Origin: Methanobrevibacter millerae
GTDB taxonomy: Archaea > Methanobacteriota > Methanobacteria > Methanobacteriales > Methanobacteriaceae
Length of the DNA: 64,000 nucleotides
Assembly: GCF_001477655.1 (NCBI RefSeq)
Contig: NZ_CP011266.1
Location: forward strand, 2,216,001-2,280,000
Direction: 5' to 3'
A program made the translations under genes and the position numbers. The notes beneath the pieces were generated by a model, which worked only from the letters and a program-made list of their open reading frames with translations, had not been told where the DNA came from and did not search any database. Shown piece by piece: positions 57,530 to 61,610 of the stretch. Positions within the stretch are counted from its first letter, which is position 1; every line of letters starts with the position of its first letter.

Positions 57530-57748
57530 ATGGCAAATCCAATACTCGCTGCAATTTTATCTTTTATTCTTCCAGGAATAGGTCAAATCTATGCTGGAGA
57601 TACTCAAAAAGGTATTATATTTATTGTAGTTGCAATAGTTCTTGGACTTATTATAAGACTTATATTAAGACAATGGTTTGGTAAAATTATAGATTTAGCA
57701 TACCACATTTACGCAGCTTATGATGCATACCAAATGGCCAAATACTAA
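57530..57748 (+). CDS. Small TM2-like membrane protein
   Basis: The 72-residue protein has two hydrophobic segments (ILAAILSFILPGIGQIYAG and GIIFIVVAIVLGLIIRLIL) and the TM2-like motif LPGIGQIYAGDTQKGI. It ends in YHIYAAYDAYQMAKY. Similar small proteins are common in Methanobrevibacter; function unknown. SD GAGGTGA lies eight bases before ATG. Just downstream lies the left flank of the mobile island; the gene itself is not interrupted. Confidence 0.85.
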   Translation: MANPILAAILSFILPGIGQIYAGDTQKGIIFIVVAIVLGLIIRLILRQWFGKIIDLAYHIYAAYDAYQMAKY

Positions 57749-57780
57749 ATCTTTTCTTTTTTCTTTTTTATCTTTATAAT

Positions 57781-57808
57781 GCAAGAATACCATGACCTCT
57801 TTAGGTCG
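57781..57808 (+). mobile_element. Hairpin resembling a solo TnpB-element right end (intron target)
   Basis: GACCT-CTTT-AGGTC (57794-57807) is a 5-bp hairpin directly before the intron; its continuation after the intron is GGGATGAATTGC (60054-60065). Joined, the pattern (GAAT, a hairpin with loop CTTT, then GGG-rich tail) is like the right-end hairpin of the intact TnpB element at 61571-61610. I read it as a remnant or target-like end; no TnpB gene is attached, so this is tentative. Confidence 0.4.
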
Positions 57809-58448
57809 GTGCGACGAGCAATTGCCTTTTAATTTGTTATACAATCTTGGATTGTATGTTAGTGTAGTCATTATGACTGATAATCCTGTTGTGCGGGTTA
57901 TTCTCGCTCGAAACTGCATTATTGGTGACAATAATGTGGGTTGCATGAGAGTTTAAAGTCTAATCAATAACCATGCTCCGGGTTATTGAGGGCAAGAGAA
58001 AGATTAGTATCGGTTAACGTTATGTGAACTTTCGTTTGAAGTCTCGTTAAGAGGAACAATGTTTTATAAAAGGAGTTTAAATGATTCCATTGTGTTAACA
58101 AGCCAATTATAAGTCATACGCTTTTCGACCTTGGCGTATATAGGATACAACCTTTTAGTGCTTGTTCGGGGCATAGAAAGAACCTAACCTAATCGTGTCT
58201 AACAAAAGGTAAACTCGGTAAGTCTCATAAAGTCTAAAAAAAAAATTTTTTTAGTAGGGTGACCGTGAGGAAACTTGAATTCTTTATGAGATAAAGGATG
58301 TTAAGGAAGCAAAAGCCATTAATACTCGAAAGACAGCAGGAAACTGACAAATTTTAATAACTGTGAATGGATAGGCTGACTTTAACAGGTGAACAACATG
58401 TATATAAAACGAATATTTTTTGGTTTTATCCAAAGATTGGAGGTATAA

Positions 58449-59942
58449 ATGATGAGTAATACACAAAATAATACGTTTGTGTCCACTACTTCAAACATTA
58501 CTAACTGGTCTTCCATTAATTGGAAGAAAGCAGAAAAGTATGTAGATAAAATTCAAAAGCGGATATATCGTGCTGAAAGTGAAGGTGATTATCGAAAAGT
58601 AAGAGATTTACAACGTTTATTAGGACGTAGTGCCTATGTACAACTATTAGCAATTAGAAGAGTTACTCAAACTAATAAAGGTAAGAGAACTGCAGGTATT
58701 GACGGATTTAGAGCATTATCTGATAAACAGAGAATGGATTTATTTTATAAAATTCGTAACCGAAATATTAACTTACATAAGCCTAAACCGGCTTTACGTA
58801 AGTATATTGAGAAAAAGAATGGTAAAATGCGTCCGTTAAGTATCCCAGTTATTATGGATAGAATTTATCAAGAAATTCTTCGTATGGTATTGGAACCACA
58901 ATGGGAGTTCCGCTTTGAACCGACAAGTTATGGTTTCCGCCCTAAAAGAAGTATCCATGATGCTGCAGAAAGAATATTTAATTATATTCATCCAGGCAAT
59001 TGGGTTTACGTTTATGAGGGAGATTTCAAGTCGTGCTTTGATAATCTTGACCATGATTTTATTTTGGAACAAATCAAAGGATTTCCATATATTAAATTGA
59101 TTGAAAGATTTCTTAAAGCAGGATATGTTGATAATAGTATGTTTTATCATACTGATAAAGGTACTCCTCAGGGAGGTTTATTGTCCCCCCTGTTGGCTAA
59201 CATAGCCTTAAATGGGATGGAGGACTGTTTAAACATTTCCTACAAAGAAGTTACATACAATAGGAATGGTAAACCCTATACTACTTATAAAACTCATGGT
59301 AAATATCGTATGACTCGATATGCCGATGATTTTGTAATATTTGCAAAAACAGAGGAAGATATACTTGAAATTCCTAATATTCTTGAACCTTATTTAGTTA
59401 AAAGGGGCTTGACCCTTGCTGAAGACAAGACCAAAATTTCTCATCTACGTGATGGTTTTGATTTTTTAGGACTGAATTTCAGAGTACACTATAATAAAAA
59501 AGGACATAAAACTTTAATTAAACCTTCTAAAGATAGTATTAAGAAAGCCAGAAATAAAATATCGGACATTTACGAAATGATGAAAGGAAGCAATGTGGAC
59601 AGTCTAATTGAGGTTGTTAATCCTGTTATCCGAGGAATTGCAAACTTTTGGAAACCCTACGTTTCCAAGGAAATATTTAGTCAAATGGATCATTACATTT
59701 GGATTAAAAACAATAAATTCCTCAAATGGCTCCATCCTAAGAAAAGTAAGAAATGGATTAAATCAAAATATTATCCTCCTTACGACGATGGAAGACACAA
59801 AGATAATTGGACGTTAACCGGCCCAAAGAACGGACAACATATTGTTAAAATGGCATGGTATCCCATCAAAAGACATACCATGATTAAATTTAACTATAGT
59901 CCATACGACGCTAGTAAATCAGATTATTTTGCGAATAGATAA
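58449..59942 (+). CDS. ltrA: Group II intron reverse transcriptase/maturase
   Basis: Intron-encoded protein of 497 residues, located in the usual domain IV position. RT motifs are complete: GDFKSCFDNLDHDFI (first catalytic Asp192), GTPQGGLLSPLLANI (QGG 241-243) and the active-site YADD (291-294). GFDFLGLNFR follows, then the maturase (X) domain with IEVVNPVIRGIANFWKPYVS and a Lys/Trp-rich end. No HNH endonuclease motif is visible at the C-terminus, so mobility may rely on other priming. Start ATG 58449 with GGAGG five bases upstream. The frame is intact. Confidence 0.95.
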   Translation: MMSNTQNNTFVSTTSNITNWSSINWKKAEKYVDKIQKRIYRAESEGDYRKVRDLQRLLGRSAYVQLLAIRRVTQTNKGKRTAGIDGFRALSDKQRMDLFYKIRNRNINLHKPKPALRKYIEKKNGKMRPLSIPVIMDRIYQEILRMVLEPQWEFRFEPTSYGFRPKRSIHDAAERIFNYIHPGNWVYVYEGDFKSCFDNLDHDFILEQIKGFPYIKLIERFLKAGYVDNSMFYHTDKGTPQGGLLSPLLANIALNGMEDCLNISYKEVTYNRNGKPYTTYKTHGKYRMTRYADDFVIFAKTEEDILEIPNILEPYLVKRGLTLAEDKTKISHLRDGFDFLGLNFRVHYNKKGHKTLIKPSKDSIKKARNKISDIYEMMKGSNVDSLIEVVNPVIRGIANFWKPYVSKEIFSQMDHYIWIKNNKFLKWLHPKKSKKWIKSKYYPPYDDGRHKDNWTLTGPKNGQHIVKMAWYPIKRHTMIKFNYSPYDASKSDYFANR

Positions 59943-59978
59943 TTGTATAATCTTACAATTTCAGATAAAGGTTTGCTT

Positions 59979-60012
59979 GAGCCCATTGTGATGAAAGTCA
60001 CACGATGGGTTC
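59979..60012 (+). other. Group II intron domain V
   Basis: The hairpin starts GAGCCCATTGTGATGAAAGT and closes with CACGATGGGTTC; it has the catalytic AGC triad, the GAAA tetraloop and the standard 34-base length. It is the most diagnostic RNA element of the intron. Confidence 0.9.
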
Positions 60013-60053
60013 TGAGGAGAGAAGGAGGAGGCGACTCCTCTGACTTATCCTAC

Positions 60054-60404
60054 GGGATGAATTGCACTGTTGTGTGTACTATCTTTTTTTAATAACTTTT
60101 ATCATTTTTATTTCTTTATTTTGTGTTTTTATGGATGTTATTTTTTTTCAGTATACATTTTTTTTATGTTGATTGTAATATTGTTTTGAGTGTGAAAAAT
60201 TGTTCTGAGTACGTTATTTGATTACTTACCAAATGCTCTTACTCTTTTTTTATATATAACTAATTTACAAAGGATATATTATGCAATATTAATTGTGGGT
60301 TTAAAAAAAAGAGTCAAAAAGATAAAAAAATTTTCTTTTAGTTTCTTTTTTTTGATTATGAATAATCAATAATGTAAAACTGTGAATAGGAGGTGGATTT
60401 TTTT
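60054..60404 (+). other. 3' exon and upstream region of tnpB
   Basis: About 350 bases without a gene. It begins with the 3' exon (GGGATGAATTGC), then very AT-rich sequence. A perfect 8-bp inverted repeat TTGATTAT-GA-ATAATCAA (60352-60369) lies 35 bases before tnpB and may be the left-end hairpin or a promoter element. SD AGGAGGT is at 60388-60394. Confidence 0.45.
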
Positions 60405-61544
60405 ATGGGTGATTTTATTCGAGGATTGGTTGTTAAACTTCATGTAACTCCCGAACAAGAAGTAGAATTTAAAAAGAACTATGGTTGTACTCGTAAAATC
60501 TATAATGAACTTTTAAACAAATACAAAGCCGAACATGGTGAGGATTCAACTGAAATTCCAACTCAAAAAGAATTAAATCAATTCTTAAAAGAAACTAAAA
60601 AAGAATTACCCTACCTGAAGGAAACAGAGTCCACCAGTCTTCAGCAGGCACGTGATGATTTGCATAAAAGTTTTAAAAATTGTCATAAAAGCAAAAGGCA
60701 TAATCCTCCAGTTTATCATTCTAAAAAGAAAACACGACCTAGCTTCAGACAAACCGTCAGAAAAGATAAAAGACCGGTAGAAAACAACACATTAACATTA
60801 AGAAAACATGGGAAAGTAACATTCAGCACAAGCATAGAATATCTGGATTTACTAAACCACCCAGACACTAAATTCAACAGCATAACAGTATACTTTGATG
60901 GATTAAATCACTATGCATCATTCAACATAGAAACTAATCCGCCAGAACATCTAGAATTAACTGAAAAATATATTGGGTGTGATATTAATTCTAATAAAAA
61001 TGGATGGTTAGTCACAAGCGAAATGCAGAAGGAATTTTTTGATGTTGATCATGAAAACCAAATGATCAAACACATCAACAAATTAATGTCACAATGCAGA
61101 AACATGAGCAGGCGATGGAAAAAACTACAAAAAAGACTACAAAAATGGTACAACAAAAGAACAAACCAATTAAATGACTACATTGAAAAATTAACTTACA
61201 ATCTAGTCAAAAAATATGATATAATAGTCTTTGAAGAAAACTACTCTACTATCAAGATTTTAATTGGAGGGGAGGAAAACATGATATTTCCTCTATCGCG
61301 ATTCATAAAAAGATTAAAAGACAAATTCCAACTCTACAAACCCGAAGCAGACGGCGTACAATTCGTAAAACCACACAACACAAGCAGAACATGCCGCCAC
61401 TGCGGACACATAAACAAAGAGTTAAAAGTCAAAAAACGCAACTGGAAATGTCCAAAATGCGGAAAAATACTTGATAGGGACACAAACGCAGCAATTAATA
61501 TTCTAAACCGCTGGTTCAACGGGAATAGCCTGAAAAAACATTAA
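60405..61544 (+). CDS. tnpB: TnpB RNA-guided nuclease of an IS605/IS1341-type element
   Basis: The 379-residue TnpB protein has all RuvC residues: Asp193 (IGCDINSN), Glu277 (IVFEENYS) and Asp357/Asp359 in LDRDTNAAINI. The zinc finger has cysteines 330, 333, 349 and 352 (CRHCG, CPKCG). The N-terminal helix-turn-helix (GDFIRGLVVKLHVTP, CTRKIYNELLNKYK) is present. TnpB cleaves DNA guided by an RNA from the element right end and promotes its own retention. No TnpA transposase is nearby, so the element is TnpB-only and would need TnpA in trans. ATG 60405 has AGGAGGT upstream; GTG 60393 is an alternative. Confidence 0.93.
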   Translation: MGDFIRGLVVKLHVTPEQEVEFKKNYGCTRKIYNELLNKYKAEHGEDSTEIPTQKELNQFLKETKKELPYLKETESTSLQQARDDLHKSFKNCHKSKRHNPPVYHSKKKTRPSFRQTVRKDKRPVENNTLTLRKHGKVTFSTSIEYLDLLNHPDTKFNSITVYFDGLNHYASFNIETNPPEHLELTEKYIGCDINSNKNGWLVTSEMQKEFFDVDHENQMIKHINKLMSQCRNMSRRWKKLQKRLQKWYNKRTNQLNDYIEKLTYNLVKKYDIIVFEENYSTIKILIGGEENMIFPLSRFIKRLKDKFQLYKPEADGVQFVKPHNTSRTCRHCGHINKELKVKKRNWKCPKCGKILDRDTNAAINILNRWFNGNSLKKH

Positions 61545-61570
61545 AATTAACCCATCAAATGAAAAAAAAA

Positions 61571-61610
61571 TTCAGGAATCCCCACCCTCTTTAAGGGTGG
61601 GGTGGTTCAA
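61571..61610 (+). mobile_element. Right end and guide-RNA hairpin of the TnpB element
   Basis: CCCCACCCT (61580-61588) pairs perfectly with AGGGTGGGG (61594-61602) around the loop CTTTA. GTGGTTCAA follows to 61610 or nearby. This strong 9-bp hairpin a few dozen bases after tnpB is the usual 3' end of an IS605-type element and of its reRNA. The bases right after the end would act as the guide. Confidence 0.7.

Follow-up and report, generated by a model that had tools for sequence, protein, structure and literature searches.

The window analyzed here, a 64,000-bp stretch corresponding to bases 2216001-2280000 of the complete 2.54 Mb genome of Methanobrevibacter millerae, contains a TnpB element of the IS200/IS605-like type that is interrupted by a group II intron, hereafter intron A. 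The features of this locus, all on the forward strand, are as follows.

57772..61610, +, TnpB (IS200/IS605-like) element bearing intron A, 1.6 kb without the intron, delimited by the start of the sequence shared by four copies and by the right-end TTCAA at 61610
57781..57808, +, 5' part of the TnpB left-end hairpin, that is, the 5' exon, GCAAGAATACCATGACCTCTTTAGGTCG
57796..57801, +, IBS2 (CCTCTT, positions -13 to -8), pairing with EBS2 at 6/6 positions
57803..57808, +, IBS1 (AGGTCG), pairing with EBS1 at 6/6 positions
57809..60053, +, group II intron A, IIB-like, 2245 bp, with Rfam D5/D6 at the 3' end and an intact maturase reverse transcriptase (RT)
58049..58054, +, EBS2 (AAGAGG)
58126..58131, +, EBS1 (CGACCT), in the loop of a stem
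58449..59942, +, intron-encoded reverse transcriptase/maturase, 497 aa, intact, without an endonuclease domain (RVT_1, RVT_N, GIIM; TIGR04416, 326 bits, above cut-off)
59977..60053, +, domains V and VI (RF00029, Rfam group II D5/D6, 56.3 bits, E 2.3e-08)
60054..60065, +, 3' part of the TnpB left end, that is, the 3' exon, GGGATGAATTGC
60222..60239, +, promoter-upstream motif TTACTTACCAAATGCTCT, an empty target site of intron lineage B, which occupies this motif in antisense orientation in L011 (the sister element) and L010
60405..61544, +, tnpB, intact (Cas12f1-like_TNB, OrfB_IS605; NF040570, 165.7 bits)
61576..61610, +, TnpB right-end hairpin GAATCCCCACCCTCTTTAAGGGTGGGGTGGTTCAA, ending in TTCAA, from the sequence

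Intron A starts with GTGCGACGAG at 57809, where a 5' end of the GUGYG type is present (GTGCGACG), and ends with TTATCCTAC at 60053. The class is given as IIB-like on the basis of the form of domain V, the GTGCGAC start and the closest solved protein; the Rfam search of the window detected no intron other than group II and, in particular, no group I intron of the IStron type. The best solved relative of the intron A protein is the maturase reverse transcriptase 6me0_C (1.6e-91), which we take to be the TeI4h protein of T. elongatus. The alignment spans residues 11-478 of the 562 aa of 6me0_C; the C-terminal part, the expected position of an endonuclease, is absent from the intron A protein, in which a Pfam search found no C-terminal HNH endonuclease domain, a feature of the chloroplast-like (CL) class of intron-encoded proteins. 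The closest RT relatives are encoded in Methanobrevibacter genomes; a more distant relative from Virgibacillus (L076, 54% RT identity) continues into an HNH-like sequence, which is absent from the archaeal introns.

The element hosting intron A can be delineated by comparison with other copies. Four copies share a common sequence from TTTATCTTTATAATGCAAG onward and diverge upstream, with the homology beginning at TTTAT adjoining the hairpin, and TTTAT at 57767-57771 is probably the target-side sequence of the TnpB element. Without the intron, the length from GCAA to TTCAA is 1585 bp, compared with 1593 bp in three other elements. Removal of the intron yields GCAAGAATACCATGACCTCTTTAGGTCGGGGATGAATTGC, in which the joined exons have the layout given in the preliminary description: GAAT, a 5-bp stem (GACCT/AGGTC), a CTTT loop and the GGGATGAATTGC tail. 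Also in agreement with that description, CCTCTTTA, which covers IBS2, is shared by the hairpin and the right end (61576-61610), and IBS2 pairs exactly with EBS2.

The same description identified the hairpin as a TnpB right end, and this reading has to be rejected. The left-end pattern GCAAGAATN{10,40}GATGAATTGC has seven matches in the genome and none in the reversed control, and a tnpB ORF of the same orientation follows each of the seven, in the same layout, at a distance of ~0.35-0.65 kb or, in two copies with intron B in between, 2.6-2.8 kb. The sequence comparison thus shows, beyond chance, that the hairpin at intron A is the left end of the same TnpB element, with tnpB downstream. The pattern is present in 48 of the 67 genomes of the genus, again without matches in the reversed control. 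The 29 distinct left ends adopt a single fold: a ~9-bp stem plus an outer GCAA/TTGC pairing. This fold is formed by 26 different sets of pairs, so that the shape of the left end is kept while the sequence changes. Because the stem of the intact element exceeds 5 bp, the insertion point of intron A falls within the 3' arm, and three stem bases remain beyond the intron; the proposed insertion directly after a hairpin is therefore correct with respect to the hairpin itself, which is real, but not to the insertion point.

Subterminal hairpins, left and right, flank the tnpB ORF, as in IS200/IS605-like TnpB elements. The TnpA (Y1 transposase) gene is absent from the intron-bearing element and is represented by one copy in the genome, at 364745-365104. 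The insertion of intron A divides the left end at the level of the DNA; tnpB and the promoter motif, both downstream of intron A, are uninterrupted, which would fit the suggestion of the preliminary description that the intron spreads without harming genes. The promoter-upstream motif TTACTTNTCAAATGCTCT is found at 60222-60239 and at ~30 further sites in the genome, and, at tnpB and one or more other genes (one being an integrase at 547 kb), precedes a TATA-like box; it looks like a shared promoter element that is a target of several intron lineages.

Intron-free versions of the insertion site exist in two genomes. The search for the joined exon without the intron, which was suggested in the preliminary description, identified the 40-bp site at 40/40 identity in two copies in another genome of the genus (G058), each followed by ~190-220 bp matching the left end of the window element, on contigs that stop before tnpB. 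In the M. millerae genome itself, a sister element with a tnpB gene 98% identical to that in the window contains, upstream of this gene, the uninterrupted site GGTCGTGGATG, with one base different (39/40). The sister lacks intron A and carries a lineage B intron, antisense, at the promoter-upstream motif; as the window element is empty at the B motif and the sister is empty at the A site, each of the two elements displays the empty site of the other.

The EBS1 and EBS2 sequences of intron A pair with the left-end hairpin at 12 of 12 positions (6/6 each) without a mismatch, and the 12 paired target bases, in the spacing of intron A, occur exactly twice in the genome, once at this locus and once in the sister's left end. 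Across 36 related introns, pairing with the intron's own target averages 10.6 of 12 positions vs 7.05 for shuffled targets, with none of the 20 000 shuffles as high. In the copy from G051, the change of EBS1 from CGACC to CGCCC is matched by the change of the target from GGTCG to GGGCG. These sequences indicate that intron A recognizes its site by base pairing; recognition of a hairpin of the IIC type does not appear to be required, although the hairpin may assist. Assignment of intron A to group IIC was considered and rejected because IBS2 and EBS2 pair at 6/6 positions.

The other copies of the intron were collected by comparing its first 640 bases with the genomes of the genus, a search that is independent of TnpB. 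Five A-type copies with a readable 5' junction were found in five genomes, with 88-100% identity over the compared 5' sequence, and all five junctions are located in end hairpins of TnpB elements, at the left end in four cases and at the right end in one. Apart from the window copy, these are as follows.

G070, 5' junction after AACACCCCGACCTCTTAGGTCGG, 3' exon GGATGAATTGCACTG, left end
G081, 5' junction after GAATACCCAACCTCTTTAAGGTTG, variant left end
G091, 5' junction after GCAAGAATACCACGACCTCTTCAAGGTCG, left end
G051, 5' junction after GAATCCCCGCCCTCTACAGGGCG, right end, downstream of an intact tnpB ORF (~60 bp from its stop codon)

The variant in G081 is considered a TnpB left end because in two other genomes, G074 and G086, the same variant adjoins tnpB. 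Three of the five A-type contigs stop before tnpB, so that the link to TnpB there comes from the end hairpin alone, and just four of the A-type copies have readable EBS sequences. In G086, a sixth copy (RT 98%) is truncated by 106 bases at its 5' end and is located ~120 bp into the left region of a TnpB element; its 3' junction lies beyond the contig edge. The upstream flanks differ among all these copies, the sixth included, those of the five with readable junctions being unrelated, and the insertion points in the window and in G070 are one base apart. None of the 80 loci from viral contigs is close to intron A. The presence of close relatives in this type of hairpin in four other genomes suggests that TnpB ends serve these introns as home sites, and the suggestion of the preliminary description that the intron homes to the ends of TnpB elements is largely borne out by the five junctions and the intron-free sites.

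The association with TnpB extends to the wider intron family. Among the 33 non-nested insertions of this family in the genus that have readable 5' junctions, 18 are within TnpB elements, compared with ~1% expected (binomial probability <1e-20 at 2%); the loci were assigned manually for this tally, and not all of the copies are independent. The ten TnpB elements of ~1.6-1.9 kb comprise ~0.7% of the genome. Nearly half of the insertions of the wider family are outside TnpB elements, in unrelated sites or in other introns. The sites used by related lineages in TnpB elements are the following.

Left-end 5' arm: G038 and a fragment at 278093
Promoter-upstream motif: lineages B, B2 and D
tnpB start: G089
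tnpB ORF end: G074 and G071
Right-end/flank border, after TTCAA: 281405 in the genome of the window, and L075; lineage C is inserted exactly there (L012:3406, L075:5337)

The TnpB guide RNA would start at the border used by lineage C. Mapped on the RT tree, the TnpB label requires six changes, so that the habit of targeting TnpB must have arisen more than once. No tnpB was found near 65 loci of distant relatives. The view of lineage B as a homer to TnpB only was not upheld, given that the genome contains its motif ~30 times and that B-type introns are also found at non-TnpB sites. Nested introns are observed within sequences encoding RT motifs (after FEGDF, GGLLSP and YADDF) and in domain VI after GGAGAGA (L012, L013, L071, L073, L180 and L181-L183). 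In another genus of the family (L190, L194, L196, L198 and L200), related introns are repeatedly located 3' of GGAGGAGCAA-like sequences, in what appear to be protein-coding genes with similar motifs. Contigs labelled Bacillales, Bacilli or Ruminococcaceae (L071, L073 and L075) carry Methanobrevibacter-like introns or TnpB elements, which reflects either misbinning or transfer.

In all likelihood, a mobile, IIB-like, endonuclease-less intron has retrohomed into the left-end hairpin of a TnpB element, and its lineage tracks TnpB ends via EBS pairing. The position of intron A, its boundaries, the empty sites, the pairing, the recurrence and the matched change of EBS1 and target are all read directly from the sequences; insertion by retrohoming and splicing of the intron would account for them as the probable processes. 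EBS2 would read the 5' arm and the loop of the left-end hairpin, and EBS1 would read the 3' arm. As such ends are a feature of the TnpB elements of the genus, these elements would offer a dispersed set of similar, non-essential target sites, so that the intron lineage could follow TnpB ends across species and switch between left and right ends through matched EBS1 changes. By analogy with RmInt1, for which the use of single-stranded DNA at replication forks in the absence of an endonuclease is described (PMC8914252), the lack of the endonuclease probably makes intron A use such DNA as well.

It could be argued instead that the hairpin is recognized as a structure, in the manner of group IIC introns at terminator or attC hairpins, and that the TnpB sequence is incidental: all five A-type insertions are 3' of a stem-loop with pairing arms, and a 2021 paper points to a possible relevance of upstream secondary structure in group IIB introns of halophiles (PMC7923331). 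This is unlikely, however, given that an IBS2 is present in the target of intron A and fully paired, unlike in IIC, that relatives with equally good pairing reside at sites without a direct upstream hairpin (the promoter motif and the tnpB ORF end), that the EBS1 changes follow the target sequence, and that A-type copies are found in no other class of hairpins. A single ancestral insertion, after which the intron spread as a passenger of TnpB transposition, is quite improbable. Introns and left ends do co-occur in several genomes, and the one TnpA gene of the genome could work in trans, but the hairpin sequences vary among the copies, one of which is in a right end, the insertion point is shifted by one base between the window and G070, EBS1 varies with the target, the nearest sister element has, in place of intron A, a different intron at a different place, and the insertion splits the left end. 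The location of the hairpin 3' of a TM2-like gene (57530-57748) and a T-rich stretch would also fit an ordinary terminator, or a chance stem-loop, that has no relation to TnpB. This hardly conceivable reading is rejected because it is refuted by the seven tnpB-linked copies of the pattern, absent from the reversed control, and by the homology of four copies that starts right next to the hairpin.

In a further, rather doubtful scenario, TnpB elements would offer several intron lineages more than a safe location: TnpB, guided by RNA, would cut emptied sites, and repair by copying of the intron-bearing element would help to hold the intron and the element together, so that the introns would live off the system for TnpB retention. 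If this were the case, the insertion of lineage C at the scaffold/guide border would make the formation of the TnpB guide depend on splicing. A 2022 survey reported almost no group II introns in most archaeal phyla outside Halobacterota and Thermoplasmatota (PMC8919778). An archaeal group nearly devoid of such introns in that survey thus appears to harbor a family that repeatedly evolves guides against TnpB elements, with relatives of the Cas12 nucleases as targets. The natural pairs of EBS and target, together with the empty sites, could serve as a test bed for intron retargeting, and they raise the question whether introns at the left end, promoter, ORF end and guide border alter TnpB expression, the guide RNA or transposition.

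The closest precedent comes from T. elongatus, where three introns of family F4 share a conserved insertion site in ISEL1, which belongs to the IS200 family, and where insertion elements or other introns were listed as targets that enable spread (Mohr et al. 2010, PMC2882425). Common to both cases are IIB introns, divergence of EBS between families and several copies at one IS200-family site, with others nested; in T. elongatus, however, one site in one element of one cyanobacterium is involved, whereas here the host is an archaeon, the end hairpins on the left and right are used, and five or more lineages and many species participate. RmInt1 of Sinorhizobium, which homes to ISRm2011-2 (PMC5894124), is likewise an endonuclease-less group II intron with a multi-copy insertion sequence as its natural home, but ISRm2011-2 belongs to the IS630 family rather than IS200/IS605, and a target in a transposon-end hairpin is not described in that paper. 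Group IIC and IIC-attC introns resemble intron A in inserting next to a stem-loop, but substitute the hairpin for IBS2 (PMC7923331), which in intron A is fully paired. In Methanosarcina acetivorans, archaeal introns home into other group II introns and become nested (reviewed in PMC4424553); intron-in-intron nesting is also observed in the present genome, but in M. acetivorans it does not involve TnpB elements. In IStrons (PMC4227781), an intron and an IS200/IS605-type element similarly form one unit, but there a group I intron is joined to the element and moves with it, whereas intron A is a group II intron that encodes its own reverse transcriptase and is inserted into the element. The literature search, with most subscription journals outside its reach, yielded no report of group II introns within TnpB elements. 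Given the ISEL1 and ISRm2011-2 precedents, the kind of association is already known; what is new is the archaeal hosts, the transposon end hairpins on both sides as targets, and the repeated convergence.
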